A DNA stretch of 64,000 nt from Bacteroidota bacterium (GTDB lineage: Bacteria > Bacteroidota > Bacteroidia > 2-12-FULL-35-15): NCBI GenBank assembly GCA_947449315.1, contig CANFRC010000011.1, positions 62,001 to 126,000 of the forward strand. The letters are read 5' to 3'. Below, piece after piece: positions 2,219 through 24,600 of the stretch. The notes under the pieces were generated by a model. That model had not been told where the DNA came from. It made no database searches and worked only from the letters and a program-made list of their open reading frames with translations. Positions within the stretch are counted from its first letter, which is position 1; every line of letters begins with the position of its first letter. Made by a program: the position numbers and the translations under genes.

Positions 2219-2938
2219 ATGCCAATAAAAAAACTATCCATTATTATTCCTGCTTATAACGAAGCGGCAACCATTCATTTGATATTGAACAAGGTGCTTG
2301 CTGTTAATTTGCTGAACGATATTCAAAAAGAGATCATCATTGTGAACGACTGCTCGAAAGACGCCACAAGAGAGGTGATTGAAAAATACATTAGCGAAAA
2401 CAAAACCAGCAACATTGTTTTGCATAATCAGGAATTTAATCAAGGGAAAGGAGCCGCCTTACACAAAGGCATTTCCTTGGCAACGGGCGAATACCTGATC
2501 ATTCAGGATGCCGATTTGGAATATGATCCGGAAGAGTATAACATTTTGTTGAAACCGATCATTAATGGCTTTGCAGATGTTGTGTATGGTTCTCGTTTTA
2601 TGGGTGGAAAGCCTCACCGTATTTTATTTTTCTGGCATACCATCGGAAATAAATTTTTAACGACGCTGTCGAACATGTTTACCAATTTGAATCTTTCAGA
2701 TATGGAAACGTGTTATAAAGTATTCAGAACGGATGTTATTCAAAGCATAAAACTGAAGGAAAACCGTTTTGGTTTTGAGCCGGAAGTCACCGCAAAAATT
2801 TCCCGTGTACCTAAAATACGGATCTATGAAGTAGGTATTTCCTATTATGGAAGAACTTACGAAGAAGGAAAAAAGATTGGCTGGAAAGATGGATTCAGGG
2901 CGCTCTGGTGTATCATGAAGTATAATTTGTTTCAATAA
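2219..2938 (+). CDS. GT2 glycosyltransferase, polyprenyl-phosphate sugar synthase-like
   Basis: A 239-residue family 2 (GT-A fold) glycosyltransferase resembling dolichol-phosphate mannose synthase. Visible signatures are [12 protein letters not shown] near the N-terminus, [20 protein letters not shown], the DAD motif in [14 protein letters not shown] (about residues 94-107) that binds the nucleotide-sugar metal, and YGSRFMGG. There is no C-terminal membrane segment, as in the soluble DPM1 type. The likely reaction is transfer of one sugar from a nucleotide sugar to polyprenyl phosphate on the inner face of the membrane. Two polytopic GT-C-like proteins, the class that uses such lipid-linked sugars, are encoded convergently next door. 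Donor sugar and that partnership are inferred. Confidence 0.85.
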
Positions 2939-3076: not shown

Positions 3077-5020
3077 TTATTTAGCCCCAAAATAACTGAT
3101 TTTTAAATCATCTATCCAAAAAGTTTTCTTTGCTTTATTCCAAAGATAAAATTTGATACTACATTCTTTTTGAAACGCATTAAGATTAACAACAAAATGG
3201 GCTGTAGCATTTTTCCATGGTGATCTATTATCGCCATTATTCAAAACAATTGACTTGCCATCCCAAAACAGATTTTTCCCAGAATCGGTATCAACCGACA
3301 TGATCACCAATGCGTCTTTCGAATCGTTATTTTGTTCCAATAATTTACATGAAATATCTATGTTTCGAGTATTGGCAGGAACCTCAGAAATAAATTTTTT
3401 AACGGTAACGCTGTATTCTGCACTTTCCGATAATTGACAGGATCTTTTGCCGGAAAAGACATGAGATGTGTCCATTGAAAACGTATTTAAAAGATTTGCT
3501 CCGAGTGTTTCAAGATCATAAAAATCGATAGAGGTCACCTCTTTCTTTTGTCTGTTTTTAGATTTCATAAAAACATATACGGAAAAATCATAACCACCTA
3601 AAACAGTTAATTTTTCTTTTGTATTAAAGGTTTTAATCAATTGAAAATGGAGATCATTAAGAATGGAGTCAAGCGGTATGGCGGCTTCGTTAGGTCCGAA
3701 ATGTGCGTCCCAAAAAATAACGGTACTGTCTGGGATCGAAGAAATTCCATAAGCCTTTATTGTTGGATACAAGCCCCATAACTCACCTACTTTTTTTGGG
3801 TCGAAGGAGTCAACATCAAGAACGTTTGCTAAAAAAGGGTGTAAGTAAAAGACTTTTTTATCTTTAAGCATTGACTTTTTGAACCAGTCACCGGCATCTT
3901 TGATCAGCGTTTGTTCGGCATCCAATTTATAAGGAAAGTATTCCTGTTTGAAAGGATTGGTAATTATAAAAAATAAAAAGAGGACAATAATAGATGATTC
4001 TAGGAATTTGTTTCTTTTGAAAAAGGGCAGCATTATTAAATTAAAACCTCGCAAGCAGATTAAAGCAGAACATGGCATAACGCCAGCCAACACTCGTATT
4101 AAACCCAAAGAACCTGCAAGCCCTTTCCACCAAAATATTGAATGCGCCACAAAATAAACGGTGAAGGAGCCGTAAATTAATAAAACCTCTTCTATCAAAA
4201 AGCACCTTTTCTCTTTGTCTTCAACTTTCTTTTTTAGGCTTGAAAAAATCAAAAAGAACGCACCGACGCAGCCGAATAAAAATAGTATACCTAATGTATT
4301 CCCCCAAATAAAATCATGATTTATTAAAAAATGAAACAACTCTCCTTTTCCATATATATTATAATTTGATCCAGTATACGGGTTCTGGTGTTTGATCCAA
4401 AAAAGGTCCTTGTAGTAAAAATAACCAATAACGGTATAGGCAAGTGTGCCAAAAGCAAGAAGGGGTGTTAAAAACAGTTTTTTGCGGTATAATAAAACAA
4501 TAAAAAACAATGGGAGAATCAAATTTCCTTCTGTTCGCACAAAAGGTAAAAGAGAAACAAGAGCTGTTGCCCAAAAATAATTGTTGCGGAACATTAGATA
4601 AACTGAGCCGATCAAAACCAATCCAAAGAAAGGTTCTGTTAATCCGCTGTTAATTGTCGGAAAATAGATCGGTGTAAAAAACAAAAAGAGGATGACCAAA
4701 AAAGGGTACTCAAGTTTTAATTGTTTGGCTAGTTTAAAACAAAGTACAGAAGATAATATAGCACAAAAAAGATTAAACACATTTACTCCGATCAATCCAA
4801 ATTGTGAAAAGGGAGAGCTTATCAATGTGAAAAAAGGTTTCCCCCAACTGTAAAGAAGCAGATCGGGGTGCTTCCAAGAATATCTAGAAACTAAATAATG
4901 ACGAATACCATCTCCGGAGTCGAAGGTGCCGGAGGCGCAAAAAGAAAGCAGAAAAAAAAGCACTAAAAGTCCTGTTAATAGAAGTAGCAATGCGTTTTTC
5001 TCGGAGATGTTTTTTATCAC
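3077..5020 (-). CDS. Polytopic GT-C-like glycosyltransferase with C-terminal beta-sandwich-like domain
   Basis: This 647-residue protein has about ten hydrophobic segments in its first 360 residues. The first extracytoplasmic loop is acidic (FDSGDGIRHY), as in GT-C enzymes that take sugars from polyprenyl phosphate. A globular portion follows, and residues 496-647 form a separate module with the hallmarks FSGKRSCQL, EYSV, GKNLFWDGKS, YLWNKAKK and WIDDLKISYFG. The same module occurs in the proteins at 9491-10084 and 13431-15404. I read it as a carbohydrate-binding-like beta sandwich because of the IDDL ending. The gene is last in a minus-strand run with MBOAT, SGNH and a second GT-C-like gene, with a gap of 9 bases. 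Substrate unknown. The GT-C call rests on topology, not on a diagnostic motif. Confidence 0.65.
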   Translation of the reverse strand: MIKNISEKNALLLLLTGLLVLFFLLSFCASGTFDSGDGIRHYLVSRYSWKHPDLLLYSWGKPFFTLISSPFSQFGLIGVNVFNLFCAILSSVLCFKLAKQLKLEYPFLVILFLFFTPIYFPTINSGLTEPFFGLVLIGSVYLMFRNNYFWATALVSLLPFVRTEGNLILPLFFIVLLYRKKLFLTPLLAFGTLAYTVIGYFYYKDLFWIKHQNPYTGSNYNIYGKGELFHFLINHDFIWGNTLGILFLFGCVGAFFLIFSSLKKKVEDKEKRCFLIEEVLLIYGSFTVYFVAHSIFWWKGLAGSLGLIRVLAGVMPCSALICLRGFNLIMLPFFKRNKFLESSIIVLFLFFIITNPFKQEYFPYKLDAEQTLIKDAGDWFKKSMLKDKKVFYLHPFLANVLDVDSFDPKKVGELWGLYPTIKAYGISSIPDSTVIFWDAHFGPNEAAIPLDSILNDLHFQLIKTFNTKEKLTVLGGYDFSVYVFMKSKNRQKKEVTSIDFYDLETLGANLLNTFSMDTSHVFSGKRSCQLSESAEYSVTVKKFISEVPANTRNIDISCKLLEQNNDSKDALVIMSVDTDSGKNLFWDGKSIVLNNGDNRSPWKNATAHFVVNLNAFQKECSIKFYLWNKAKKTFWIDDLKISYFGAK

Positions 5021-5029
5021 AACAATAAT

Positions 5030-6796
5030 TTATTTAGATAATACATTTACTTTAAACGATGTCAATTTCATTTTTGCATTTCCATCAATGTAAACATAGG
5101 ACTTTAGTTCAAAGTTTTTATCGTTTACTTGTGGCGGAACCAAAACAGACATTTGTCCACTACCACCGTTGTTTTTAAAATCATTGAATGAAAAATCGTG
5201 AGAACGATACTCGTATAATTTCCCATTCTTGTTGATGCAAACAACTAAATGAGCAACAAGATCAGCTGATGAGTTTGTGTTATTGGTGTCTATTGTAATT
5301 GCAGGCACCAAATATTTATCACTTGCATCATAGCCCAGATTTGTGGGTGTTAAAATGGATTTCGAAAACACATTATTTGCACTAAGATTTGCGGCGTATT
5401 CATCTAATAATAGGTTTGCGCTATAGATCGTTTTGTATTGAACAGTTGCTTTTAACGCATCCTTTTCGTCACCATATTGTGATGGCGCTAACCATCTTTT
5501 ATCTTGCTCCGTTGCTTCATTTTTTAAGAAAACCCTCCAGTAATATTCTTTTGTTGTTAATGAAGTATGAAGCACTCCGTTCAATGCCTGGCGGGTTTGA
5601 AATAAATTTAGATAAACACAAAACAATCCGATTGCTAATGCTGGAATAATGATCGTGTATTTTTTTAAAGAAATACTTGCCACTAAAGTCGCGAAAGGGA
5701 AAACCATGAATACATAGGATTCAACAAAAGGTCGTTGCGCGAACGAGCCGCCATACCACCAGCAATCCCAACAAGAAATAATATAGGTGTTGATGAGAAA
5801 AAACAGAAAGATTGGAACAAACAACGCGCGGTGTTTTTTATAAAGCGTCACAAAACCAATGATTGCAAAAATGATTAAAGGGGTGTACACCAGCCAGCCC
5901 TTTTTGTAGCTAAATAAAACATTTATTAAGTGCGGTTGCAACAAATTAACTTTCTCATCGGGGTAACTGTAAAAAAGCCATTCGCCCGTAACCGACTTCC
6001 AATAGGCCAATTGAGGAAGAGCAACAATAAAAGCAGCCAGCCCCAAGAAAAGAAGGTGTGGAAATTTTTTTATCAAAAGCGATGCTCTGTTTTTAAAGGC
6101 TGAAAAACTTTCGACATTCCAGAGCAACGGAATGATTCCAACAACGATGCTGGTTGGTCTGATCAATACAGAAATGCCTAAACACAAACCAATAACAATG
6201 GCATATTTCACTTTTTGTTCTTCATACCATTTAATGGATGTATAAAGCATGATGGCGAAGAAAGTAAAAATAAAATTATGTGGCATCAAACCATCAAAAG
6301 CGGTCATCACAAAATAATTTGTTCCGAAAATAAAAAAAGCTACGGTTGTTAAAACAATGCTTGGATCAAAATAGAGCGAGAGGATTTTAAATAAATAGTA
6401 TATCCCAATAAGTGAAAAAAGAATAGCGCAAATCATCATTAGAAATTGGTAAGGAGGCGAAAGCCCATCTCTTTCATACCCCAGTTTAGGTGCCAAAAAA
6501 TCGGCAATAAAAAAGAAAGGGGCGTATATAAATGAAAGCCCCATCGTATACTTCATTACGTATTTATCTTTCGGCCCCTGATAAGCCTGATAAAGATTAT
6601 CTGTTGCATTGTATTTGGCAATAAGCGGTGTGAGCCACTTGTCTTTCTCTTCCAATGTGATATCGTGGTGTATAAAATGGGCTGGTAGATATAAGTAGTA
6701 GCCGAATACATCCCAATCAATTCTTCTTTGTCGGCTGTTATTATAATAAACAGAGACAAGGAAAAAGAATAAAATGAAAATTATTTTTTTATTCAT
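5030..6796 (-). CDS. Polytopic membrane protein, probable GT-C glycosyltransferase
   Basis: A 588-residue protein with roughly ten to twelve membrane helices and a C-terminal globular tail of about 170 residues. The first loop after the N-terminal helix contains RIDWDVFGYYLYLPAHF, with an acidic pair in the place expected for the catalytic region of GT-C transferases. It lies 9 bases upstream of the second GT-C-like gene and 9 bases downstream of the AlgJ-like gene, clearly in one operon. A role in adding sugars to a cell-surface or exported glycan is inferred from context. The C-terminal tail does not show the FSGK...IDDL module of its neighbour. Confidence 0.55.
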   Translation of the reverse strand: MNKKIIFILFFFLVSVYYNNSRQRRIDWDVFGYYLYLPAHFIHHDITLEEKDKWLTPLIAKYNATDNLYQAYQGPKDKYVMKYTMGLSFIYAPFFFIADFLAPKLGYERDGLSPPYQFLMMICAILFSLIGIYYLFKILSLYFDPSIVLTTVAFFIFGTNYFVMTAFDGLMPHNFIFTFFAIMLYTSIKWYEEQKVKYAIVIGLCLGISVLIRPTSIVVGIIPLLWNVESFSAFKNRASLLIKKFPHLLFLGLAAFIVALPQLAYWKSVTGEWLFYSYPDEKVNLLQPHLINVLFSYKKGWLVYTPLIIFAIIGFVTLYKKHRALFVPIFLFFLINTYIISCWDCWWYGGSFAQRPFVESYVFMVFPFATLVASISLKKYTIIIPALAIGLFCVYLNLFQTRQALNGVLHTSLTTKEYYWRVFLKNEATEQDKRWLAPSQYGDEKDALKATVQYKTIYSANLLLDEYAANLSANNVFSKSILTPTNLGYDASDKYLVPAITIDTNNTNSSADLVAHLVVCINKNGKLYEYRSHDFSFNDFKNNGGSGQMSVLVPPQVNDKNFELKSYVYIDGNAKMKLTSFKVNVLSK

Positions 6797-6805
6797 TAGT
6801 AGAAT

Positions 6806-7990
6806 TTATTTTTTAGAAATGGGTGTAGGCAAAATAGAATTTGTATTTAATGTATCTTTATGAAGCATTTCAAACATTTGCTCAATGAAAAATTGACCGG
6901 CATTGTTTAAGCTGGACTCGGCATTAACAATTAAAATAAAATCACGGTGAGTTGTTTCTTCTTTTAAATTTAAACTGGCTGTGAGCGTTTTGTTTTGATC
7001 AGTTGGTGACCATGCCACTTCATGGTTGTAATACCAAAAAGCACTTTTTTCATTAAAAAGATTAGGAAAAAAATTATAAAAGCTGATCCAGCTCCACACA
7101 AAACTATCGCCAATAATAAGAACATTTGGCTTTTCTTTTTTGCTGTTTTTTTCGAACATAATATTCGGGTAATACATTTCATGAGAAGGAATATCAACTG
7201 TTAAGTTCAATAAATCTCCAAGGTCTGCATCGGTTGAGCGAGGAACTGTCGTTTCTTGTCCACCTTCCGTATGATAATTTAAAAGATCGACAGCGCTTAA
7301 CTTTTCCATGTATTTCACAAGCGAGTCTGCAGCAATGGTGGATGCATAGCCACTCCAGTGTACGCCACACCTGGTGAACAAAGGGTATTTGCTTTTGGGT
7401 TTTAACTTCAAAAAATAATTGCTGAAATCGATGTGATTGATCTTTTGTTTTTCTAATTGTTCGGCAAACGCATCGTAGTTGCTTCTTTTCTTTTTACGGA
7501 GATCGTATTTTTCAGGGAGGTATTCTGGGAAAACAGACGGCTTGCCGGGAGCGATGACGAAGACCAGGTCAACGTTTCGTTTTTTTAATTCATCCTGAAC
7601 ATAGGCAAGCATATTTACTTTGTTAATTATTTTATCTTCTCCGATAAAATTTTGACCCATGTAAGATTCAATATAACCAGACCCAAATAAAACCTGATTT
7701 TTTCCCACTTCTATTTCGGGTGCATTTAGTTCATTAAAAATGGAATACCCGAGTTGATTGCGAAAGCGAATTAAAAAAGGACGGATATCAAGATTTTGTT
7801 CAAAAAACTTCATTTGCTGTTCTTGACAGTTGCCATTCAGCCAATTATCTAGTGTGAATTTTGGTTGAGGCTCCCGAATGGTTTGTCCGTTCAATTTTTT
7901 AAAAGAAAAGAATTGGGTATGGTTTATTATTAGCTCTGATAGGAAGACACAAAAAAACAGAATAAATAGAATGTGTTTTGCTATTTTCAT
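6806..7990 (-). CDS. AlgJ/AlgX-like SGNH acetyltransferase
   Basis: A 394-residue membrane-anchored (residues 6-24) extracytoplasmic protein of the SGNH-fold AlgJ/AlgX type, which moves acetyl groups received through an MBOAT partner onto an exopolysaccharide. The nucleophile motif is GDSF at 294-297 (S296). The histidine motif is GVHW at 209-212. IAPGKPSVFPEYLPEKY at about 146-162 is typical of the family. The residue two before the histidine, normally Asp in AlgX/AlgJ (DxHW), is Gly here. The start codon overlaps the stop of the MBOAT gene in a TAATG arrangement, indicating translational coupling. Polymer identity is unknown; alginate genes are not present. Confidence 0.8.
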   Translation of the reverse strand: MKIAKHILFILFFCVFLSELIINHTQFFSFKKLNGQTIREPQPKFTLDNWLNGNCQEQQMKFFEQNLDIRPFLIRFRNQLGYSIFNELNAPEIEVGKNQVLFGSGYIESYMGQNFIGEDKIINKVNMLAYVQDELKKRNVDLVFVIAPGKPSVFPEYLPEKYDLRKKKRSNYDAFAEQLEKQKINHIDFSNYFLKLKPKSKYPLFTRCGVHWSGYASTIAADSLVKYMEKLSAVDLLNYHTEGGQETTVPRSTDADLGDLLNLTVDIPSHEMYYPNIMFEKNSKKEKPNVLIIGDSFVWSWISFYNFFPNLFNEKSAFWYYNHEVAWSPTDQNKTLTASLNLKEETTHRDFILIVNAESSLNNAGQFFIEQMFEMLHKDTLNTNSILPTPISKK

Positions 7991-9414
7991 TAAAACCTAA
8001 AATAAATGAAAGGATTAAAATCAGAACCGTTAATGTCGCTGATGCAAATAATAAGAAGGATCAGCAATACGGATGCTTTCAGTATCAGTATTGTTTTTTC
8101 CCAGCGGGATCCAATGGCATCTAATTTTTTCTGAAACGATCCGAACATAGGATAGAAAGAGATGGCAGCCGCAATTATCAGCATTGTCCAAAAACGGTTG
8201 TTCAAAGTTAAAGGGCTAATAATACTGCTTGAGAATGAAAACAATTGTCTGATATAACCAAATGCAAAATGCAAGTCGGCCGACCTAAAGAACACCCATC
8301 CAACAACAGTAAAAGTAAAAGTGATAAGTACAGTAATGGGTTTATAAATGCGCTCGGTAAGTTTTAGTAAGAACAAGCGATCTAAAATTAAAAGAAACCC
8401 GTGATAGGCTCCCCAGATCACAAATGTCCAGGAGGCTCCATGCCACAGACCGGAAACAAGAAAAACGACCCATAGGTTCATTAATAAACGGAATTTCGAC
8501 ACTTTATTTCCTCCTAAGGGAATGTATAAATAGTCGCGCATAAAACGGCCAAGTGTGATGTGCCATCTGCGCCAAAATTCAGTGATGTTTTTTGAGATGT
8601 AGGGGAAGTTGAAATTTTCGGGGAATGTAAAACCCATCATTTTTGCTAGTCCGATGGCCATATCCGAATAGCCGGAAAAATCAAAATAAATCTGAAAGGT
8701 GTACGCTAAAATTCCTATCCAAGCAGCAACAGTAGAGATTGTTCCCAGTTGCATTGCAAAAATTGCATTTGCAGCACTTCCAAGCGGATTGGCAATGATT
8801 ACTTTTTTTGACAAGCCAATCACAAAGCGGAACATTCCATTCAGGCGGTTGTCAATCGTGTATTCACTTTCTCTGTTTTCTATTTGATCGGCAATTTCGT
8901 TGAATCGAACAATAGGTCCGGCTATTTGATGTGGGAACATTAAAATATACAACACATAATCGCTGAATTTTTCAAGAGGCTTATGCACTTTGCGATATGC
9001 ATCAACCGCATAGGTGATCTTATGAAAAGTAATAAAAGAAATTCCGATAGGAAGAACAACCGCTACCCAGTTAACAATTCCTTTTGCTCCCCAGTTGGAG
9101 ACAAGGCTGTTCACATTCTCCACAAAGAAATTGGCATATTTAAAATAAGAGAGCAAACCAATATTAAGAACCAATGAAATTATTAGCGCTCCTTTTCGCT
9201 GTTTTCCTGTGGAGTTGAATACCGCCTTTACTAGATAAAAATCTAGAAACAAAGAGATCAAAAGAATAAAGATGAATTTTGGAGCGCCCCAGGCGTAAAA
9301 AAACAAACTACCCGCCAAAGCAATTAAATTCCTAAATTTAGTTGGGCTAATGTAATAAGCTAAAAAAAATAGAGGCAGAAAAGCAAGAAGAAAAAAGTTA
9401 TTACTGAAAACCAT
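7990..9414 (-). CDS. MBOAT family membrane O-acyltransferase (AlgI-like)
   Basis: A polytopic membrane-bound O-acyltransferase that passes acetyl groups across the membrane for polysaccharide O-acetylation. Key segments are EFWRRWHITLGRFMRDYLYIPLGGN and LWHGASWTFVIWG, the latter with the invariant catalytic His. The open frame extends to 9579, but I place the start at 9414. The protein from there begins MVFSNNFFLLAFLPLFFLAYY, the usual AlgI beginning, and is 474 residues, a normal length. A TAnnTTTG box lies at 9436-9443, and the longer form would overlap the divergent gene at 9491. The stop overlaps the start of the AlgJ-like gene by one base. Confidence 0.9.
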   Translation of the reverse strand: MVFSNNFFLLAFLPLFFLAYYISPTKFRNLIALAGSLFFYAWGAPKFIFILLISLFLDFYLVKAVFNSTGKQRKGALIISLVLNIGLLSYFKYANFFVENVNSLVSNWGAKGIVNWVAVVLPIGISFITFHKITYAVDAYRKVHKPLEKFSDYVLYILMFPHQIAGPIVRFNEIADQIENRESEYTIDNRLNGMFRFVIGLSKKVIIANPLGSAANAIFAMQLGTISTVAAWIGILAYTFQIYFDFSGYSDMAIGLAKMMGFTFPENFNFPYISKNITEFWRRWHITLGRFMRDYLYIPLGGNKVSKFRLLMNLWVVFLVSGLWHGASWTFVIWGAYHGFLLILDRLFLLKLTERIYKPITVLITFTFTVVGWVFFRSADLHFAFGYIRQLFSFSSSIISPLTLNNRFWTMLIIAAAISFYPMFGSFQKKLDAIGSRWEKTILILKASVLLILLIICISDINGSDFNPFIYFRF

Positions 9415-9435
9415 TTGCGAGTTTGTTTGGTCTGC

Positions 9436-9443
9436 CAAATATA
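9436..9443 (-). promoter_or_regulatory. Bacteroidota -7 promoter box for MBOAT operon
   Basis: On the minus strand this reads TATATTTG, a full match to the Bacteroidota -7 consensus TAnnTTTG. It ends 21 bases before the proposed MBOAT start at 9414, giving a leader of about 15 bases. No TTTG was found at the preferred -33 spacing, so the site is only partly supported. It also argues against the longer MBOAT frame, which would run through it. Confidence 0.45.
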
Positions 9444-9490
9444 TTAATTTTACTGCAAAATAAGCATCAATAATAAAACAAAGAACGAAC

Positions 9491-10084
9491 TTGGAAAAAA
9501 CCTTTAAAAATAAAGAGATAAGCGATTTTGTGCGTATCGGGCTTTTACTTTTTTTATTCGCATATATTCTTTTTCGCATACTGGACTCAATGGATCTTTT
9601 TATTGAAGAGATTCATTGTGGAGCAGAAAAAGTAGTAACCGTTGACAAGAAAGAATATTTTTTGGCGAATGGTTATCGCTTCGACAATGCAAACGGCAGA
9701 TCGAGTGAAAGAGCTTTTGAGGGTTCGTATTCCGTAAAGTTGACTCCAGAAAATCAATATGGCCTTTCCATCACCTCAGGCAAACCAACTGCCCAGGAAG
9801 TGTATGAAGGAAGTGTTTGGTTTTATGAAAACAAAATAGAAGCCGATACAACTGGTTGGCCGTTTCTTGTTGCAAGCATAGGAAACCAATTTTGGAAAGG
9901 GGCGACGGAAATTGTTCAAAAAAAGGACGGCTGGGGAAAATTAGAATTTAAAATCACCATCCCTGAAGGAGTTTACAATGACCCTCTTGTTGTTTATTGT
10001 TGGAACAATACAAAGAATATTGTTTATTTTGATAACATGACACTCAGAAGAAAAAATTACATGAAGTTTTTCAGACAACAATAA
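9491..10084 (+). CDS. Membrane-anchored single beta-sandwich-like domain protein
   Basis: A 197-residue protein with one N-terminal membrane helix (about residues 15-31) and one extracytoplasmic domain (about 51-187). The domain shows FEGSYSVKL, NQYG, NQFWKG, DGWGKLEF, VVYCWNNTKN and IVYFDNMTL. It matches the C-terminal module of the GT-C protein at 3077-5020 and the two modules of the protein at 13431-15404. No enzyme motif is visible, so glycan binding or scaffolding is inferred. The start is TTG at 9491. The frame is closed by a stop at 9461, and no ATG precedes the membrane helix; the first ATG, at 9590, would remove it. The gene is divergent from MBOAT and convergent with the second AlgJ-like gene. 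Confidence 0.65.
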   Translation: MEKTFKNKEISDFVRIGLLLFLFAYILFRILDSMDLFIEEIHCGAEKVVTVDKKEYFLANGYRFDNANGRSSERAFEGSYSVKLTPENQYGLSITSGKPTAQEVYEGSVWFYENKIEADTTGWPFLVASIGNQFWKGATEIVQKKDGWGKLEFKITIPEGVYNDPLVVYCWNNTKNIVYFDNMTLRRKNYMKFFRQQ

Positions 10085-10102
10085 ATGTTAGAAAAACAGA
10101 TG

Positions 10103-11461
10103 TTATTTATTTATTCTTTTTTGATTATTCGTATACAGCCATAACGCGTTATTAAAAAATTCTACTGATTCGGGAACACCTTTTTCTTTCGCACTTTTTA
10201 CAAGTTGCGCTTTCCAAATTTTATCATTCTCAACATTTACAAAAAATGTTGCTACAAACAATCTGAACTCTTTCTTTTTTAGTTCATAGTAGTTGTTGTC
10301 TTTAGGCGCGTATCGTTCGTAGGCATCATCAATGAATCCATAAGGAAACTGAGCAAGCGAAGCTTCTGTTGCTAGCATACAAACAACATCTTGTTTTTCA
10401 ATTTCTTTTTTAATATCAAGCCCGCTAACTTTTTTCTCTTTTACATAACTCTCCGGGAAAATGGCATCATAATAAAGCCAATAATGATAGTCTGAGAAAA
10501 CGTTTGCAGGGATTCTTGTTTTTATGATACCGGCAAAGTAGCTGTCGGAGATACACAAAAAGCGAGGTTTCATAGTTGCCGAATCCGATTCATATTGAAG
10601 TTTAGCAATGGCCACTTTTGGTTGAGGAATTGTTGTAAAAATATTCATTAACGTTGCTGCATCATAATCATTGCATGCATTACCGGTATAGGAATTCATT
10701 TCAATAGAACGGACCTTAATTTTAGGGAGCGAAATTTTTCTTAATTCTTCTATATAGTGAATGATCTTCTTGCTTGCAAGCAAACAACCATAATCTGTCC
10801 AATGGACCCCAGTGGTGGAGTAGAGTGGATATGTTTCTGAATGTTTAATGGATAAAAAATATGAATGCAGATCTAAATTATTGACTTCAAACGCGTCAAA
10901 CATTTTTTTATAAACCTTATAATTAGTGCTATCCGGTTTCGCTTCCTTTTTAAAATTGTCAGGAATATATTCAGAATCAAAACTTCCTTTTCCTGGTGCT
11001 AACACAACAAAAAAATCGACGCCTCTCTTTTTTAATTCTGTTTGAACACACTTTATTTTTTGAACGTTAATTGCAATATGTTCTTTACCAACAAAATCTG
11101 CTCCGGTAAACGCCTCGATATAAGGCTTTAAAAAGACATAGCCATTTTTTCCAACTACAACATCTCCTGCATCGGAGGTTTTAAAAATACTGAAGTTAAT
11201 TTGATTGTGAAGTCGCACAAGTGAATTGTGAAAACCAATATTTTGTTCAAAAGCCAACATGAAATTTTTTTGAAAACGCTCATTCAGCCAAGTTGACTTT
11301 GTGATTTTAGGAAAAGGACCAGCAGAATCAATGCCATCTAATGGCTTTTCTTTTATGAAAGGAAAAAAAGCCTGAAACATTGGTATACACAATAGGAGCG
11401 CAAAGGAGAAAAAGATCCGCTTTTTTAATTTAATTGAAACATGTTCTACTGAAGAGCTCAT
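10103..11461 (-). CDS. Second AlgJ/AlgX-like SGNH protein
   Basis: A 452-residue membrane-anchored (about 15-35) paralogue of the SGNH protein at 6806-7990. Shared landmarks are LAPGKGSFDSEYIPDNF at about 154-170, the histidine motif GVHW at 218-221 and a nucleophile motif reading SDSY at 305-308 (S307), where most relatives have GDS. As in its paralogue, Gly replaces the Asp of DxHW. It follows the GH16-like gene by 16 bases in the same direction. Two such proteins with one MBOAT suggest either two acceptor positions or one catalytic and one accessory subunit; sequence cannot decide. An additional 90-residue C-terminal extension ends in a Lys/Asn-rich tail. Confidence 0.72.
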   Translation of the reverse strand: MSSSVEHVSIKLKKRIFFSFALLLCIPMFQAFFPFIKEKPLDGIDSAGPFPKITKSTWLNERFQKNFMLAFEQNIGFHNSLVRLHNQINFSIFKTSDAGDVVVGKNGYVFLKPYIEAFTGADFVGKEHIAINVQKIKCVQTELKKRGVDFFVVLAPGKGSFDSEYIPDNFKKEAKPDSTNYKVYKKMFDAFEVNNLDLHSYFLSIKHSETYPLYSTTGVHWTDYGCLLASKKIIHYIEELRKISLPKIKVRSIEMNSYTGNACNDYDAATLMNIFTTIPQPKVAIAKLQYESDSATMKPRFLCISDSYFAGIIKTRIPANVFSDYHYWLYYDAIFPESYVKEKKVSGLDIKKEIEKQDVVCMLATEASLAQFPYGFIDDAYERYAPKDNNYYELKKKEFRLFVATFFVNVENDKIWKAQLVKSAKEKGVPESVEFFNNALWLYTNNQKRINK

Positions 11462-11477
11462 TGTAATTCAGGTGCTT

Positions 11478-13427
11478 TTATTCGATGGTTAGATCATAAA
11501 TTTCTCCGGGAATATCATTCAAAGGAAACGGCAAGTTATCCTGAGAATAGGGCGCTCCAGGCCACCACTTTGTATTGTGATATTCTTGAGTGATGATTAA
11601 TAACATTTGATTGTTTGGAATGGACGTGACTTTATCATTCATATAGCCCACCACGCGCATCTTATCAGGAGAGGCGCCTATGCGCCAGATAATTTCTGTT
11701 GGCTTCCAGTCAATCTCAAAGTAATAGAATTTTGAACCAAATAGCTCATCATCAGTTTCTTCTTTTTTCTCTGTCAAGGCTCTGTAGGCTTCGTCCCAAC
11801 GATGCGCTTCAAAAGTTTGTCCTTTGTATTCAATAGGGTTGCAACCAATACCAAAATTTTTTGGTTCCCAACACGCCATGTCCCAATTGGTACAAGCAAC
11901 AGTAACATTAGCATCGGTGTTGGTAATTTCTTGTGGCAATGCCACATTCCAGCTTGCCACATTTTTATTGTTGTCAATCGGGTTTTTAAATACAGGAGGA
12001 AAAACATTGTCCGGACAATAAGGTGGCGTTTTTAAGATCTCAAAATCGATCTCGCTATAATCTACCAAAGGAATCCGTTTATCGTCGTGCCCGCCCCAAT
12101 ACGTAGCCATATATCCCTCTTTGTTACATGTCCTGCGATAGTTCCATTCACCACCACCTTGCGTGATCAGCCAGATCGCATTCGTTAACCCGTTCCACAC
12201 ATTGTTTTTATTTAATAGTTCAGTCAGTTTTACTTTCACTCTGTATTTTCCGTATGTGAGTCCGTGGCGCGTAATGATTCCAACACTTTCTTTTTTCCAT
12301 TCACCGTATTGTGTCTTCGGATTTTTAATGATTATTTTTTTCTCCTTTGGATCGGAGACAACCGTTTCGCAAGGACGTTTAGAAGTTTGAATAATAGTAG
12401 GGATCAATTCATCTTTCGAATAAAATGATTTATTCCAGTTGTAATCCATCTTCGAATAATTGTCTTTCAAGATATCGGCAACAACAGGAATGTTATCCAT
12501 TTTTGTGGATATATCTACATAATTTATGAATTGTTGGATGGGCGCGTTTTTGTATAAGTTACTGTCTTGCCCGCAGGTGGCGCAGAAATAAGATTTATCT
12601 TCCTCCCCATTAAAACGTGCGTCATCCACATAAATTCCACCACCCAGATTCGGTTGTGCAGTCACTTTTAAAAGCGATGCAGATTTATAGGCGATCATGT
12701 TTTGCAACAACTTTCCGTCTCCGTTTAAATAATAGTAATAAGGATTTGAAAAATGTCCGTTATTCTTTTGATTAATATTTTGAATATAAGTAGGAATAGT
12801 TTTTAGATTATTTTCAGAAACAACAATCAATAGGAAGCTATAGTTTCCAACACGAGGATTGCGTTGCCAGCGGTTGTTAACACCGTTCTGAATATAGCGT
12901 TCATCATTGCGCGGATTACCAATTATGCGAAAGATGTCATTTGTCTTATGAAATGAATTGTCGGAAGGAACGCAAATCTTTTTGAAGGTGGTGGCGGTGT
13001 TTTCCCAGCTGCCGTAAAAATTTTCTTCAGCTAAAGGGTTTTCTCTTTTGGTCAGCGCGTCAATCTCATCAAATTTGTAGCTTTCGTTTTGGTAATAGAT
13101 TTTATAGTAAAAGTTTTGTGTAGAAGAGGTGTTGTTTTTTATTTCGAACTGGAATGCAAAACTTCCTTCTTGTATTTGTTTAGATGTTGGAATTATAAAT
13201 CCGCTGTTCGCATTGTTGTAATCAATAAAAATAGTTTTCGATTCCATACTGTCCTTTTGCCAGTTAGAGAGCGGGTTAAAGTTCTGAATGCTGAAATCGG
13301 AGCAACTTAACTTTTCGGATGTTATAGCGTTATTGTTGCAGGAAAAGAAAAAAGGTAAAATGATTACCAGCACGTATGCTCTGTTTAATATACACGCCCA
13401 GAGGCGATGTGTTTCTTTTTTTATCAT
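11478..13427 (-). CDS. GH16-like glycoside hydrolase lipoprotein
   Basis: A 649-residue probable lipoprotein: hydrophobic segment 17-29 then FFFSC with Cys30. Residues 375-649 look like a GH16 concanavalin-type beta jelly roll. YGKYRVKVKL (393-400) and EIDFE (459-463) match the GH16 catalytic pattern E-[ILV]-D-x-E of the form without the beta-bulge, with E459 as nucleophile and E463 as acid/base. WKPTEIIWRIG (575-584) is the strand that normally follows. Insertions between these elements are large. The first 350 residues are unassigned but contain a GGGIYVDDARF strand like that of carbohydrate-binding modules. It may trim or remodel the polymer made by this locus; the target glycan is unknown. 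Confidence 0.72.
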   Translation of the reverse strand: MIKKETHRLWACILNRAYVLVIILPFFFSCNNNAITSEKLSCSDFSIQNFNPLSNWQKDSMESKTIFIDYNNANSGFIIPTSKQIQEGSFAFQFEIKNNTSSTQNFYYKIYYQNESYKFDEIDALTKRENPLAEENFYGSWENTATTFKKICVPSDNSFHKTNDIFRIIGNPRNDERYIQNGVNNRWQRNPRVGNYSFLLIVVSENNLKTIPTYIQNINQKNNGHFSNPYYYYLNGDGKLLQNMIAYKSASLLKVTAQPNLGGGIYVDDARFNGEEDKSYFCATCGQDSNLYKNAPIQQFINYVDISTKMDNIPVVADILKDNYSKMDYNWNKSFYSKDELIPTIIQTSKRPCETVVSDPKEKKIIIKNPKTQYGEWKKESVGIITRHGLTYGKYRVKVKLTELLNKNNVWNGLTNAIWLITQGGGEWNYRRTCNKEGYMATYWGGHDDKRIPLVDYSEIDFEILKTPPYCPDNVFPPVFKNPIDNNKNVASWNVALPQEITNTDANVTVACTNWDMACWEPKNFGIGCNPIEYKGQTFEAHRWDEAYRALTEKKEETDDELFGSKFYYFEIDWKPTEIIWRIGASPDKMRVVGYMNDKVTSIPNNQMLLIITQEYHNTKWWPGAPYSQDNLPFPLNDIPGEIYDLTIE

Positions 13428-13430
13428 GCG

Positions 13431-15404
13431 CTAATTTGTTGAGCCTCCTTCAATACTATATACTTGTGTGCTGTTTGGAAGTTCGGGTAAACTTTCAAAC
13501 AGGTTGCATCGTGTTCCTTTAAAATTATTGTCAGCGCAATTTCGCATCATAACAATCAGCGATGTTTTGTTTGAACTCAGAAATTTACCGCAAACGATTT
13601 TCACAAATTCATAATACTTAGGATTGTTATCGTTAGGATAGCCTTTAAAATCAACGTTTCCAAGAATCGTATAGCCGTCTTTTTCTTGTTCAACCAATTT
13701 AAGATCAAATCGCCAATCGGTATTCAGTTTAAGTATTTCGGGGCTTCGCTCACCAAAATAATTTCCTGGAAAAAGAAAGTCGGAGGACTTAAACACATCT
13801 TTAGAGTTTCCTAACGATGGCGTTTCAAATTTTGATACCCATGATTTATTCAGATTGTTTTTATCTCCTTTTGATTTTACACTCCATTTTTTTCCATCAA
13901 ACTCGATCACGCTCCACGCTTGATTTTTTTTGTTCAGAACAAGCACGTCAGATTTCCCATCGTTATTAAAATCTCCGGATGAAAAGGAGTTGATTTCATT
14001 CCAAATAGAATCCGTCCTATTAAGGCTTTCCCAGATGTTTAAAAACTCCTTTTTTTCCTGTGAATATCTAAACATACCAACCCTGTTTGATTTAATGCAG
14101 AGCACTTCATCCAGATTGCTTTTGTCTTTATCGAAATTTCCTGTTAAGAAAGAGTCGTTCGGAGAAAAATCGGCAGTTTCACTTTTTTTATCTGACACAA
14201 TACTCGTGGAATTTTCATTTTTTATTTCTTGTTTTTGTAGCCAGATTGTTTTAAAAGGAGGCTTATTTCTTTCTGTTATAAAATGTTTTTCATAGATAGC
14301 ATTTGCATCAAGCGTTGATGGAGCGCCCCTTCTTTCAGCGCTTTCACCATATACGATTTCTAGGTCATCAACGATTACATCAGATTTTCCTTTGTTCCAA
14401 ATGTTCACAGTTAGCAGGTCTTCCGGAGTAATTTTTTCTATCGGGAGAATAAATGCGGCATTGATCTTAGACCATTGGTTTTTTGGAAAATGATTGTTCT
14501 CAGAACTTTTGCCACCCCAAAAAACAGTTTCGTTTTTGGAGTTCGTTACCGAAGCAGTTATCACGGTGTTCGGATGATCGGTTAGTGGGTAAACCCAAAT
14601 ACTCAGCTTTATTTTTTTGATCGGTTCGGCAGATACATCTTTAATTTTTTTGATGACAGAAGGACCATATTCTTTATTCCCTGTTAAATCGCATGCAAAT
14701 TTTCCAGAGTGAGCGGTTGTTTCTTTTATTGTTTCTATTCCGTTAAGCCCTGTTGTTGTCTCAAAATCAAAAAAGAAATTCGTATTCGTTGCTTCTTTTT
14801 GGCTTGTCGTTTTTGCTTCCGCCATTCCGTAATAATTGACAGTAAGATCATCTATAAAAACTATTTTTTTATTTCTGTTCCAAGCATACAAAGTGAGTGA
14901 GTTTTCAGGAATTAAAAATTCGGGTTTAATTTCAAAGTGGATGGTATCGTTTGACCAAGTGTCTTTTTTCTTGGATAGTATAGGCACACCGTTCCAATAG
15001 ATATTTTTTCCTGTCTTATCATTGATTGCAAATACATAAAGCGCCGATGTGTCCATGTTTTCTGTTATACACTGGAAGGCAAGGGAAATAGAAGTTAAGT
15101 TTTTATATGAAGGAATATCACTTAATAAATGATTGACTCCAAACCCATATTCCAAATTAGGCGATAGCTTGGAAGATTTTTTGCCGGAAAACGCTTTTTC
15201 AGAAGTGATCGAGGCATTGCCAGAACTTTCGAAATCAAAATATTCTGTTAACAAGGAAACTGTTACGAGCGTGTCTTGGGGTTGCTCTGTTGCAACTGTT
15301 GTCTCAGCAATAGGCACATTTTTCTTCAGAAACAAGAAAGCTCCCGTAAAGCCTGAAAAAACAATAATAGAAAAAACAATAAATCGTTTTTTTTGATCGT
15401 TCAT
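13431..15404 (-). CDS. Membrane-anchored protein with two beta-sandwich-like modules and FG-GAP-like repeats
   Basis: A 657-residue protein with an N-terminal membrane helix (about 8-26). Modules at 51-193 and 210-353 are tandem copies of the FSGK...WNxxKK...IDDL domain also found at 3077-5020 and 9491-10084. From about residue 415 there are FG-GAP/VCBS-like blades, for example GNFDKDKSN, GDFNNDGKSDVLVLN (477-491) and a less regular copy at about 546-600, suggesting part of a beta propeller. No catalytic motif is visible. It is first in the minus-strand run with the GH16-like and second SGNH genes, with a 3-base gap to the next gene. A glycan-binding or scaffold role on the outer face of the membrane is inferred. 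Confidence 0.62.
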   Translation of the reverse strand: MNDQKKRFIVFSIIVFSGFTGAFLFLKKNVPIAETTVATEQPQDTLVTVSLLTEYFDFESSGNASITSEKAFSGKKSSKLSPNLEYGFGVNHLLSDIPSYKNLTSISLAFQCITENMDTSALYVFAINDKTGKNIYWNGVPILSKKKDTWSNDTIHFEIKPEFLIPENSLTLYAWNRNKKIVFIDDLTVNYYGMAEAKTTSQKEATNTNFFFDFETTTGLNGIETIKETTAHSGKFACDLTGNKEYGPSVIKKIKDVSAEPIKKIKLSIWVYPLTDHPNTVITASVTNSKNETVFWGGKSSENNHFPKNQWSKINAAFILPIEKITPEDLLTVNIWNKGKSDVIVDDLEIVYGESAERRGAPSTLDANAIYEKHFITERNKPPFKTIWLQKQEIKNENSTSIVSDKKSETADFSPNDSFLTGNFDKDKSNLDEVLCIKSNRVGMFRYSQEKKEFLNIWESLNRTDSIWNEINSFSSGDFNNDGKSDVLVLNKKNQAWSVIEFDGKKWSVKSKGDKNNLNKSWVSKFETPSLGNSKDVFKSSDFLFPGNYFGERSPEILKLNTDWRFDLKLVEQEKDGYTILGNVDFKGYPNDNNPKYYEFVKIVCGKFLSSNKTSLIVMMRNCADNNFKGTRCNLFESLPELPNSTQVYSIEGGSTN

Positions 15405-15431: not shown

Positions 15432-17240
15432 TTATTGTTTAATACTCACTTTGTTTTTCTTCTCAATAGAAGCCCTGATGTCTGCTAATTGCCCTTTAGG
15501 AATAGCGTTGATCAGGTTTTTTGTATATTCACTTTGCGGGTTGGAATAAATTTCGTCAGCATCCCCCATTTCTTCTACTTTCCCTTTATTCATAACAACC
15601 ATGCGGTCGCTCATGAATTTTACTATGGAAAGGTCATGTGAAACAAAGATATAGGTGAAATCAAATTCGCGTTTTAATTCGTTTAATAAGTTCAACACCT
15701 GAGCTTGCACAGAAACATCTAATGCGGAAACAGACTCGTCACAAATAATAAATTTTGGGTTTAATGCGATTGCTCGGGCGATACAAACTCTCTGACGCTG
15801 CCCACCTGAAAACTCATGGGGGTAGCGGTAAAAATGCGATTCATTCATGTTTACACGATGCAATAACTCAATCACTCTTTCTTTTCTTGCCTTGTCATTT
15901 TCAAGAATACCATGCACCTGCATCGGTTCCATAATGGCTTGTCCAATGGTAATACGAGGGTTTAAAGAAGAATAAGGGTCTTGAAAAATGATTTGAATGT
16001 CTTTGCGTAACTCACGCATTTTAGCGGCATCGATTTTTGTAATGTTGATGCCATCAAATAGTATTTCACCACTTGTGGGTTCTATCAAACGTAAAATAGT
16101 TCTTCCAAGGGTTGTTTTTCCGCATCCCGATTCCCCTACTAAACCAAGGGTTTCGCCAGGGTATACATCAAATGAAACATCATCAACAGCATGTACAAAC
16201 CCTTTCGCTTTTCCAAACAGTCCTCTCTGTATCGGAAAGTATGTTTTTAGGTTTTTGATCTGTAATATAGGCTGTTTGGAATATAATTTTTTATGTGCTT
16301 CCGTACGTTCTTCTTTAGAAAGAACATGCTTTTCGGCGACGTCTTTAACAGATGGAGTGCTTTCGATTAGTTCACCAGCATCATTTGTTTTCATGAAATC
16401 GGAAACGGTTGGCAACCAAAGAAGGCGTTTGTCCAATGGAGGACGACACGCTAAAAGACCTTTCGTATAAGGATGTGTTGGGTTCGAAAAAATATCTAGA
16501 ACGCTGCCTTGCTCTACAATTTTTCCTTTATACATTACCACCACTTTGTCGGCAAGTTCAGCAATAACGCCTAAATCGTGCGTGATGAACATAATGCCCA
16601 TTTTCTGCTCGCGCTGTAATTTTAGCATCAGATCTAAAATAGTTGCTTGTACTGTTACATCCAAGGCTGTAGTAGGCTCATCGGCAATTAAAATAGTAGG
16701 CTTACAGCTCATGGCCATAGCAATCATGACACGCTGCTTTTGTCCACCAGATATTTGGTGAGGGTAGCTGTTAAAAATATCGTCAGGACGAGGAAGCTGC
16801 ACCTCTTTAAATAAGTTGATGGTAAGTTCTTTTGCTTCTTTTTTGGAAACTTTTTGGTGGAGTAAAATGGCTTCCATTACCTGATCACCGCAGGTGTATA
16901 CAGGGTTTAAGGAGGTCATCGGCTCTTGAAAAATCATTGCAATTTCGTTTCCACGAAGTTGACGCATCTCTTTTTCAGGAAGCGTTACAATATCAATAGG
17001 GCCTTTTGTTTTTGAGTGAAAAATGATCTCTCCAGCGGTAATTTTACCTGGCGGGTTTGGGATCAGTCGCATCACAGATAAAGAGGTTACAGATTTTCCG
17101 GAGCCCGATTCGCCAACAATACCAATTGTTTCACCTTTAGATAACGTAAAAGAAATATTGTTAACCGCCTTTACTGTTTCGTCTTCAGTACGAAATTCTG
17201 TAACTAAATTTTTTACTTCTAACAACAATTCATTTGTCAT
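15432..17240 (-). CDS. Fused double ATPase of an oligopeptide/dipeptide-type ABC transporter
   Basis: This 602-residue protein contains two complete ABC nucleotide-binding domains, as in YejF- or GsiA-like ATPases of the Dpp/Opp family. The first has Walker A GESGSGKS, signature ISGGQKQRV and Walker B ILIADEPTTALD. The second has GESGCGKT, FSGGQRQRV and FIICDESVSALD, where Ser replaces the usual Pro-Thr but the catalytic Glu remains. The THPYTKGLLACRPP stretch after the first domain is the characteristic oligopeptide-transporter C-terminal element. It would power import of small peptides or similar solutes. No permease or binding protein is encoded in this window, so the partner genes are elsewhere. 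Confidence 0.9.
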   Translation of the reverse strand: MTNELLLEVKNLVTEFRTEDETVKAVNNISFTLSKGETIGIVGESGSGKSVTSLSVMRLIPNPPGKITAGEIIFHSKTKGPIDIVTLPEKEMRQLRGNEIAMIFQEPMTSLNPVYTCGDQVMEAILLHQKVSKKEAKELTINLFKEVQLPRPDDIFNSYPHQISGGQKQRVMIAMAMSCKPTILIADEPTTALDVTVQATILDLMLKLQREQKMGIMFITHDLGVIAELADKVVVMYKGKIVEQGSVLDIFSNPTHPYTKGLLACRPPLDKRLLWLPTVSDFMKTNDAGELIESTPSVKDVAEKHVLSKEERTEAHKKLYSKQPILQIKNLKTYFPIQRGLFGKAKGFVHAVDDVSFDVYPGETLGLVGESGCGKTTLGRTILRLIEPTSGEILFDGINITKIDAAKMRELRKDIQIIFQDPYSSLNPRITIGQAIMEPMQVHGILENDKARKERVIELLHRVNMNESHFYRYPHEFSGGQRQRVCIARAIALNPKFIICDESVSALDVSVQAQVLNLLNELKREFDFTYIFVSHDLSIVKFMSDRMVVMNKGKVEEMGDADEIYSNPQSEYTKNLINAIPKGQLADIRASIEKKNKVSIKQ

Positions 17241-21606: not shown

Positions 21607-24600
21607 TTATTTAACGAGTGTTATGTTGCCGTGTTTCTTTACCAGTTCACCCTTAACAGTAGCACTTAAGTAATATACAAATACAGCAGGATCCAATTTT
21701 TTCCCGTTTATTGCACCATCCCAACCATTAGAAGGGCTGTCTGTTTCAAAAACTTTTTCTCCCCATCGGTCATAGATTGCAAACTCAAGTGCTGTGACAC
21801 AGTTACCATAAACAAATAAAATGTCGTTTTCATTATCACCGTTAGGAGAAAAAACGTTAGGCACAAACAATTCACCACATTCAACTTCAACAAAAACTGT
21901 AACGGTATCACTTGCAGAGCATCCACCTTGTGTGACTGTTAATGTATATGTAGTCGTTACTGATGGAGTTGCAATAGTTGAAGAACAACTCGTACAACTT
22001 AATGAGCCTGGAGGAGCCCAGCTATATGTTGCCCCAGCTCCTGCAACACCGCTAAGAACTGTGCTTCCACCAGAGGAGATTGAAACATCCGCACCTGCGT
22101 CAACAGCTGGTCCTCCAACAGAACCAACGAATCCTGTAGACGACAGAATACAACCTAACGAGTCTGTGATAGTAACAGTATATGTTCCTGTAGACAAGTT
22201 TGTTGCAGTTGTTGTTCCATCACCAGTTGGAGCACCCGGACTCCAGTCGTAGGTATAAGCTCCTGTACCTCCACCAGCCGTTACTGTTGCAGAGCCGTTC
22301 GAGCTTCCACAATTGGCAGCCGTTGTAGTAACTCCAGCTGTAATTGCAGTTGGTTGTGAAATAGTAACAGAAGTTGTTCCTGAACAGCCAAGGCTATCTG
22401 TAACAGTCACTATATATGTTCCTGCTGTTAATCCTGCGGCTGTAGAAGCGGATCCTGCTCCACCTGTCCATGAATAAGTTAAACTACCTACTCCTCCTGT
22501 TGCAGTTACTGCTGCACTTCCAGTACTTGCTGCATTACAATTTACATTTGTTTGTGATGCGATACTAACCGTTGGACCACCGGTATTTGTTATTGTAACT
22601 GTTGAAGAGGAGGAAGGGCAAGGTGCATTTGAAATAGTCCACATAAATACATTTGCACCGGCTCCTAATCCGGTCACTCCGGAAGTTGCAGAGCTTGGAG
22701 TTGTTATTGTTCCAGCGCCACTGACCAAGGTCCATATTCCTGTTCCTGTTGTTGGAATATTTCCTGCCAATGTTGTAAATGTATTACACAAACTTTGATT
22801 TGGACCTGCGGTAGCAACGCTAGGGGCTGCTACGCCTGTTATAGTTACAGTGGATGTTGATGGAGGGCAAGGAGCACTACTGATTGTCCACATAAACACA
22901 TTTGCTCCAACACCTAATCCTGTTATTCCTGATGTGGGAGATGATGGCGTAGTAATCGTTCCAGCACCACTTACTAATGTCCATACACCGGTTCCAACAG
23001 TCGGAGTATTGCCTGCGAGAGTTGCTGATGTGCCACACACTATTTGAGCTGTTCCTGCAACTGAAGTTGTTGGTCCACCAGTATTTGTGATTGTAACTGT
23101 GCTTGTAGAAGGAGCACAAGGGGCATTGTCAATGGTCCACATAAACACGTTTGCTCCTGCTCCTAATCCTGTTACCGTAGATGATGCAGAAGAAGGAGTT
23201 GTAACGGTTCCAGCACCACTTACCAGTGTCCAAGTTCCTGTACCAGAAGTGGCTGTATTTCCTGCTAAAGTTGCTGAGGTGCTGCAAACCGTTTGGTTAG
23301 GCCCCGCAGCAGCAACGGTAGGCGCAGCAACGCCTGTTATGGTAACTGTGCTAGTTGATGCAGGACAAGGCGCATTGCTGATGGTCCATTGGAAAACATT
23401 CGCACCAACTCCAAGTCCTGTTAACCCGGAAGTTGGCGATGTTGGTGTTGTGATGGTTCCTGCGCCACTGACCAAGGTCCATAAGCCTGTTCCTATAGTT
23501 GCAGTGTTCCCGCTTAAAGTTGCAGTAGTTCCGCATACGGTTTGATTTACTCCTGCAGAAGCTGTTGTTGTTGGTCCAGCAGGCTGAGTGATTGTAATGG
23601 TTGCTGTTCCTGGACAACCATTGTTGTCTAAAATATTCAGTGTATATGTTCCTGCGGCAAGACCAGTGAAACTTTGTGTTCCAGCCACATTTGTAAAGGT
23701 GGCAACTGTAGTAGCGCCATTTGTTAAGGAGTAGTCCCATGGACTTGCTCCACCACTGGTTGACACATCAAAACTTCCTGTTGATGCTCCGAAGCAGGAG
23801 ACATTCACTTGTGATGAAACGCTTGCTGTTAAAGGAGGGCAGCTAGAGCAAATAGGTAATGCGGTGTATGCAGCAGAATTAGCAAGCGTGATCACATTTC
23901 CGTTTGAATCCGTCACGTGAATCGGATAAGTTCCCGGAAGTGTTGCGGTTGTTGATGTTGAAAAGGTGGTCCAGGTTGTGACAGGTGTTCCTGCAACAGT
24001 AAAGATTCCGCAATAAGAACCGAAACCGGAATTACAAGGTGTTGTTGTTGTGGAGTATTGCCATGTGTATGGACCTGTTCCGCCTGAAACTGTAGCAGAA
24101 AGGCCCGCGCTCTGACAAAGCGCCAAAGTTGCACAAACGTTAACGGTAATATTAACTATATCGGAACCACAAGCAAGCGTGTAAGTTATCGGAAAGGTTC
24201 CTGGTCCGGAGACAGCAGGATCAAATACTCCTGTAGTAGCGTTTACGCCAACACCGCTCCATGTTCCACCTGCCGTAGCTCCTTGCAAAGTAATTGGAGC
24301 CGCGGAGTTACAAATAGTAGTTGGAGCACAAATTGTTGCATCACAACATGTAAGTGCAATAGGTGCACATGCTCCTGCAGTGATCTGTTGTATATATCCT
24401 GTGCGGATAGCTGTACCAGAGTTTCCTGTAGTTCCGCAAGCAATAATATCTCCTGAAGGAGTTACATGCACATCGTATACATTAAATGATACAGGATAGG
24501 TAGCAAGCACTACTAAATTGGCATCATATTTAACAACAGCGCCTTGTGAACCTACATAAACATTTCCGCAATCATCAATGTCAATACCGCTGTTTTTTAC

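Follow-up and report, generated by a model that had tools for sequence, protein, structure and literature searches.

Why does one protein module of about 140 residues recur within a 12-kb gene cluster for glycan synthesis and acetylation? This question is raised by a stretch of 64,000 nucleotides from a Bacteroidota bacterium (GCA_947449315.1, contig CANFRC010000011.1, positions 62,001 to 126,000), which was analyzed as a whole and is referred to as the window. A sequence-only reading had placed the module once at the C-terminus of a polytopic protein, once alone behind a membrane anchor and twice in tandem in a third protein; it had seen a likeness to carbohydrate-binding modules (CBMs) in the IDDL ending, and proposed that the module recognises the polymer made here and ties synthesis, O-acetylation and export together. 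Our analysis suggests that the module is probably a divergent CBM that grips the acceptor glycan for GT-C enzymes and is reused beside O-acetylation and trimming enzymes.

Detection, fold and family of the module

All four modules proved to be homologous and, according to an open reading frame (ORF) check and profile searches, lie within a few codons of the coordinates first reported. BLASTP connected copy 3 with copy 1 (6e-26), copy 1 with copy 4 (3e-17), copy 3 with copy 4 (9e-14) and copy 3 with copy 2 (6e-13), at 24-33% identity among the window copies, while copy 2 gave no direct match to copy 1 and a 12-residue chance match to copy 4 (E 1.6). In order to control for circularity, profiles were built from other genomes only, without any window sequence and with each host-protein type left out in turn. 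These profiles recovered each of the four copies at 1e-12 or better (47-112 bits), compared with at most 12.8 bits for the top score of 2500 shuffled sequences.

Four, however, was too low a count. The PMT_2 protein (5030-6796) carries another, degenerate module at its C-terminus; this fifth copy was missed by the profile built without GT-C copies, and reached E 7.5e-4, or about 2e-5 with profiles including GT-C copies. This copy does not show the WN and DD hallmarks, and relatives of the PMT_2 protein carry a clear module at the same place. The 2.6-Mb genome has three further copies outside the window, all in polytopic proteins; two share the contig of the window and the third is on contig C5. 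Among plasmids there was no match to copy 2, and a literature search found no paper describing the module.

Based on an alignment of 123 copies, AlphaFold modelled copy 3 with nine strands and a mean pLDDT of 97. Foldseek against the PDB returned CBM22-1 of Xyn10C as the top match (3.9e-6), and the matches below 1e-3 also included CBM61, a porphyran-binding CBM, CBM16 and CBM4. The module profile matched the CBM22 tandem structure 4xup at 5.4e-9, and Pfam CBM_4_9 (PF02018) was matched at E<=0.1 by 19 of the 123 members (best 2.5e-5), with one lipoprotein-like relative above the curated cut-off (30.6 versus 25.9 bits). The proteins carrying the window copies showed no PF02018 match at E<=1 and hence fall below this cut-off. 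Profiles and model thus place the module in the CBM_4_9/CBM16/CBM22 beta-jelly-roll superfamily, as a divergent branch with a Y-x-W-N motif of its own, which supplies a family for the likeness noted in the sequence-only reading. A relationship to toxin receptor-binding domains, also returned by Foldseek, was rejected: because the sequence profiles point to CBM22/16/4, these matches were read as the common jelly-roll fold and not as kinship.

Conserved positions (numbered on window:14829-15248) are E7, G22, Y34, W85, W98, Y121, W123, N124, D133 and D134, with aromatic residues in 96% of copies at Y34, 94% at W85 and 93% at W123. W98 and the terminal DD are common to the module and the aligned CBM22 sequences, whereas W123-N124 is absent from the latter. 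The module would bind sugar, and some of the conserved residues may touch it. All copies are predicted to be extracytoplasmic, which fits the membrane anchors and the relatives with lipoprotein modules.

Distribution and GT-C-like host proteins

In a sample of 41 genomes (its own, the same genus and the same class; module threshold E<=1e-4), the module occurred in 35 genomes with about 140 copies. An even sample across the phylum yielded only 8 of 296 genomes, its own included; the module is thus patchy and no general feature of Bacteroidota. Among 89 distinct module proteins, taken from genome stretches picked around module matches so that the share refers to module proteins and not to GT-C proteins, 62 have at least five hydrophobic segments and a module ending 0-18 residues before the C-terminus. 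These 62 polytopic proteins are GT-C-like, and such membrane proteins, encoded anywhere in the genome, are the main home of the module in the sampled relatives. Several of them, including P0005 and P0006, exceed the PMT_2 cut-off. The rest are lipoproteins with one module, single modules on a membrane anchor, and tandem proteins. The 12-kb cluster, in which the sequence-only reading had seen all four copies, is therefore only one of the module's locations.

For the polytopic protein with copy 1 (3077-5020), an alignment of 18 relatives showed D37 and H41 to be invariant, both in the first predicted extracytoplasmic loop. A GT2 gene was present at most two genes away in 13 of the 18 relatives, compared with 15% for genes in the same loci, a background drawn from glycan loci themselves. 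The neighbouring PMT_2 protein shows GT-C similarity by Pfam (Table 1).

Fusion of a domain to an enzyme in some genomes, with a separate neighbouring gene for it in others, is a classic sign of joint function. In one relative (G111), single-module proteins with a lipobox-like N-terminus follow both a module-less PMT_2 protein and another polytopic protein, which argues that module and polytopic enzyme work together. In the split arrangement at L183:4810-10527, each module-less polytopic protein is followed by two single-module proteins with lipobox-like N-termini.

Association with O-acetylation genes

Of the 140 copies in the 41 genomes, 36 have an MBOAT gene no more than 10 kb away, compared with 2.6 expected at random, an enrichment of about 14-fold that is a rough figure as module copies are not independent. 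This proximity is concentrated in the genus (30/104) and weak in the class (2/29). The link to O-acetylation drawn in the sequence-only reading is therefore supported for a part of the family, while about three quarters of the copies are not near an MBOAT gene. The anchored copy (9491-10084) has one MBOAT ortholog group as its divergently encoded neighbour in all close relatives that were checked. All six anchored-module entries at >=46% identity have an MBOAT of 69-100% identity at a distance of 77-233 bp; as L047 and L068 appear to be one genome, these represent five distinct genomes. MBOAT homologs at <=59% identity have no anchored module as immediate neighbour.

The make-up of the acetylation genes is of the AlgI-AlgJ/AlgX type, with one MBOAT and two SGNH proteins recognised by Pfam (Table 1). 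Both AlgX/AlgJ-like proteins carry GVHW in place of the catalytic D-x-H of AlgX, with HW retained; the Ser motif is kept as GDSF/SDSY, and Gly replaces the Asp in 35 of 40 AlgX-like relatives. Going by these motifs, the AlgX/AlgJ-like proteins may use a different catalytic triad.

A GH16-like lipoprotein paired with the tandem-module protein

The neighbour of the tandem-module gene, whose GH16-like identity had gone unmentioned in the sequence-only reading, carries a lipobox Cys and an E-I-D-F-E motif; the Cys, E430, D432 and E434 are invariant in an alignment of 68. Its model (pLDDT 92) matched GH16 endo-glucanases, laminarinases and carrageenases in Foldseek, best an endo-1,3-1,4-beta-glucanase (7.4e-9). 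A sequence search against the PDB gave no match, so this likeness is one of fold alone. The window protein showed no significant Pfam or NCBIfam match, PF00722 (GH16) included, while 17 of 68 relatives reached PF00722 at E<=0.1 (best 3.5e-5). Lipobox, motif and model mark it as a glycoside hydrolase or transglycosylase that is probably active at the cell surface. For this lipoprotein family, which has an additional N-terminal region of about 260 residues, 189 relatives were confirmed among candidate stretches.

A single-sequence scan for close relatives of the tandem protein found none. The alignment of its GH16-like partner was therefore used as the query instead, yielding 78 named loci. In 57 of 75 loci, the next gene upstream of the GH16-like gene is a module gene, mostly overlapping it or within 20 bp; in the window, 3 bases separate the two genes. 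Six loci of the same genus (L044, L045, L046, L047, L050 and L052) have an extra single-module lipoprotein-like gene of about 174 amino acids directly upstream of the tandem-module gene (e.g. L047:10527-11051), which is absent from the window.

History of the copies

In a tree of 101 copies, the labels for host-protein type require 10 changes, compared with 37.5 for shuffled labels, and copies group with their orthologs in other species, not with their neighbours in the same cluster. Grouping by host protein instead of by genome indicates old, separate lineages and no local expansion. One subtree (34 rows, 93/82, narrowly short of the support threshold) unites copies 1-4 with their orthologs and a few others, which is no more than a hint of a shared specialisation. 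In the window, G015 and L071, the acetylation-linked unit adjoins the trimming-linked one; the two are about 50 kb apart in G004 and on different contigs in G005, G012, G014 and G016.

Proposed function and alternative explanations

The homology, the fold, the protein architectures, the conserved gene pairs and the separate old lineages were established by computation, and the GT-C activity and extracytoplasmic orientation of the module proteins are predicted. On this basis, the module as C-terminal domain of a GT-C enzyme would most likely grip the acceptor glycan, while the membrane domain would add a sugar taken from a polyprenyl-phosphate carrier; this donor is probably made by the neighbouring GT2 enzyme. 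The anchored module beside the MBOAT/AlgX pair would probably bring the nascent glycan to the acetylation enzymes, and the tandem module coupled to the GH16-like lipoprotein would probably bring it to a trimming enzyme.

Several observations weigh against this proposal. The polytopic protein 3077-5020 gave no Pfam match of its own, and 7 of its 18 relatives have no detectable module, which is thus not essential to the enzyme class. Hallmark residues are lost in the copy on 5030-6796, and at 14 of 75 GH16-like loci the three genes upstream include no module gene. Compared with known CBMs, the module reaches TM-scores of only about 0.45-0.6, and, as the toxin matches illustrate, the fold by itself is no proof of sugar binding. 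In ORF12/GT136 of Citrobacter youngae O1, a GT-C enzyme with a C-terminal CBM, that CBM was dispensable in its assay (PMC11127046).

The absence of glycan binding altogether would follow if the module were a structural or protein-protein docking domain that has a CBM fold and brings GT-C, acetylation and hydrolase proteins together. E7, G22, W98, D133 and D134 do appear structural for the fold, and the module occurs detached from enzymes yet in fixed gene pairs. However, the further aromatic positions are conserved as well, and the precedents for C-terminal CBMs on GT-C enzymes report glycan binding (PMC3044687, PMC11127046), so that we regard a docking role as unlikely. That the four copies stem from a recent local duplication without wider meaning is suggested by nothing but their position within 12 kb; it is extremely improbable, being ruled out by the label changes in the tree, where each copy groups with orthologs elsewhere, and the module is widespread among the sampled relatives.

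A further proposal is that all copies of the cluster recognise one polymer, and so tie synthesis, acetylation, trimming and export together. It would fit the common subtree of copies 1-4 apart from most other GT-C modules, the adjoining units in three loci and the enrichment near MBOAT genes. On the other hand, the copies are old lineages with low identity, the two units are far apart or on separate contigs in five genomes, the cluster yielded no export gene, and CBM specificity varies even inside one family (PMC3044687). We consider this proposal possible but somewhat doubtful; a single polymer as ligand of every copy in a genome is more weakly indicated than sugar binding, the GT-C activity or the orientation. 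The earlier interpretation is thus partly supported: right in kind (CBM, glycan synthesis, acetylation), too narrow in place and too strong on the common polymer.

Returning to the acceptor-gripping CBM, a broader idea, rather unlikely at present and put forward tentatively, is that one CBM family serves as common glycan reader for three machines per cell, namely the GT-C enzyme, the MBOAT/AlgX pair with the anchored module and the GH16-like lipoprotein with its tandem partner. Modules reading the state of the chain might then set the order and pattern of modification. GT-C enzymes with a C-terminal CBM are already known; what is new is that a single lineage employs one CBM family for all three roles, which suggests that distinct glycan machines may hold their chain with the same kind of part. 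The acceptors of most GT-C glycosyltransferases are unknown, and a soluble domain at the C-terminus, as a candidate reader of the acceptor, offers a direct handle for asking which glycan binds. In some relatives this candidate domain is a free lipoprotein. The pairings with MBOAT and the GH16-like lipoprotein, two new protein pairs, are signs of a surface-glycan system in uncultured Bacteroidota that has received little study.

Gene layout of the region

Features of the region are collected in Table 1. The GT2 enzyme is, by sequence, probably a polyprenyl-phosphate-sugar synthase. The MBOAT start was placed at about 9414, as the likely position in an ORF open up to 9579, and the anchored-module gene likely starts at TTG.

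Table 1. Genes and module copies in the cluster (window positions; aa, amino acids).
Feature	Position	Strand	Basis
GT2 enzyme	2219..2938	+	Pfam PF00535 2.3e-33
Polytopic GT-C-like protein, copy 1 at C-terminus	3077..5020	-	Hydrophobic segments; conserved Asp/His in relatives
Module copy 1	3083..3529 (aa 498-646 of 3077-5020)	-	BLASTP 6e-26 to copy 3; profile
PMT_2 (GT-C) glycosyltransferase	5030..6796	-	Pfam PF13231 1.9e-10
Module copy 5, degenerate, C-terminus of PMT_2 protein	5039..5467 (aa 444-584 of 5030-6796)	-	Profile
AlgX/AlgJ-like SGNH protein (a)	6806..7990	-	Pfam PF16822 5.4e-19
MBOAT O-acyltransferase	7990..9414	-	Pfam PF03062 3.4e-29
Anchored single-module protein, divergent from MBOAT	9491..10084	+	N-terminal membrane anchor; profile
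Module copy 2	9659-10060 (aa 57-190 of 9491-10084)	+	Profile
AlgX/AlgJ-like SGNH protein (b)	10103..11461	-	Pfam PF16822 2.8e-11
GH16-like lipoprotein, partner of tandem-module protein	11478..13427	-	EIDFE motif; lipobox Cys; predicted fold
Membrane-anchored tandem-module protein, FG-GAP repeat match in C-terminal region	13431..15404	-	Profile; Pfam
Module copy 4, second of tandem	14340..14780 (aa 209-355 of 13431-15404)	-	BLASTP; profile
Module copy 3, first of tandem, structure predicted	14823..15248 (aa 53-194 of 13431-15404)	-	Profile; model

An oligopeptide-type ATP-binding cassette (ABC) transporter ATPase gene (15432-17240, minus strand) lies upstream of the tandem-module gene, an arrangement conserved in the genus, and is probably linked to it by position alone. 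Further along, a 1535-residue protein (21607-26214, minus strand) contains a set of similar repeats (GTGxWTLVSGAGT) in a region of locally raised G+C (0.47 at 22-24 kb); judged by eye, its C-terminal end resembles a domain of the gliding-motility/type 9 secretion system (T9SS) type.

Comparison with known systems

The polytopic protein 3077-5020 resembles ORF12 in being a polytopic GT-C-like protein of about 650 residues with a C-terminal beta-sandwich CBM (ORF12 503-652), a likeness of architecture. In ORF12, this CBM binds the acceptor polysaccharide, an O-antigen (PMC11127046), and the donor is a polyprenyl-phosphate sugar. Unlike in ORF12, where the CBM sits on the enzyme, the family described here also occurs on anchored proteins, on lipoproteins and on a tandem protein beside acetylation and GH16-like genes. 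The mycobacterial arabinosyltransferases EmbC (PMC3044687) and AftD likewise combine a GT-C domain with a C-terminal jelly-roll CBM, which there serves acceptor binding. Subdomain II of EmbC has CBM6/36 among its nearest structures, whereas the module is nearest to CBM22/16/4.

With CBM_4_9 and with CBM16 and CBM22 of polysaccharide hydrolases, the module shares the fold, the 'SGK' and terminal 'DD' motifs and a significant profile match. It differs in that the window copies stay under the CBM_4_9 cut-off, in the Y-x-W-N motif, which is not found in aligned CBM22, and in sitting on synthesis enzymes instead of hydrolases. Its kinship with the sugar-binding domains of enzymes that degrade plant cell walls is a distant one. 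The GH16-like protein shares with GH16 (PF00722) the predicted fold and the ExDxE motif, but has about 650 residues with an extra N-terminal region, and only a minority of its relatives reach the Pfam family. Finally, as in the alginate system, where AlgX carries a CBM in O-acetylation (PMC4148444), a CBM is associated with an SGNH O-acetylation protein that partners an MBOAT; in AlgX it is fused to the SGNH domain, whereas here it is an anchored protein of its own, whose gene is divergent from that of the MBOAT.

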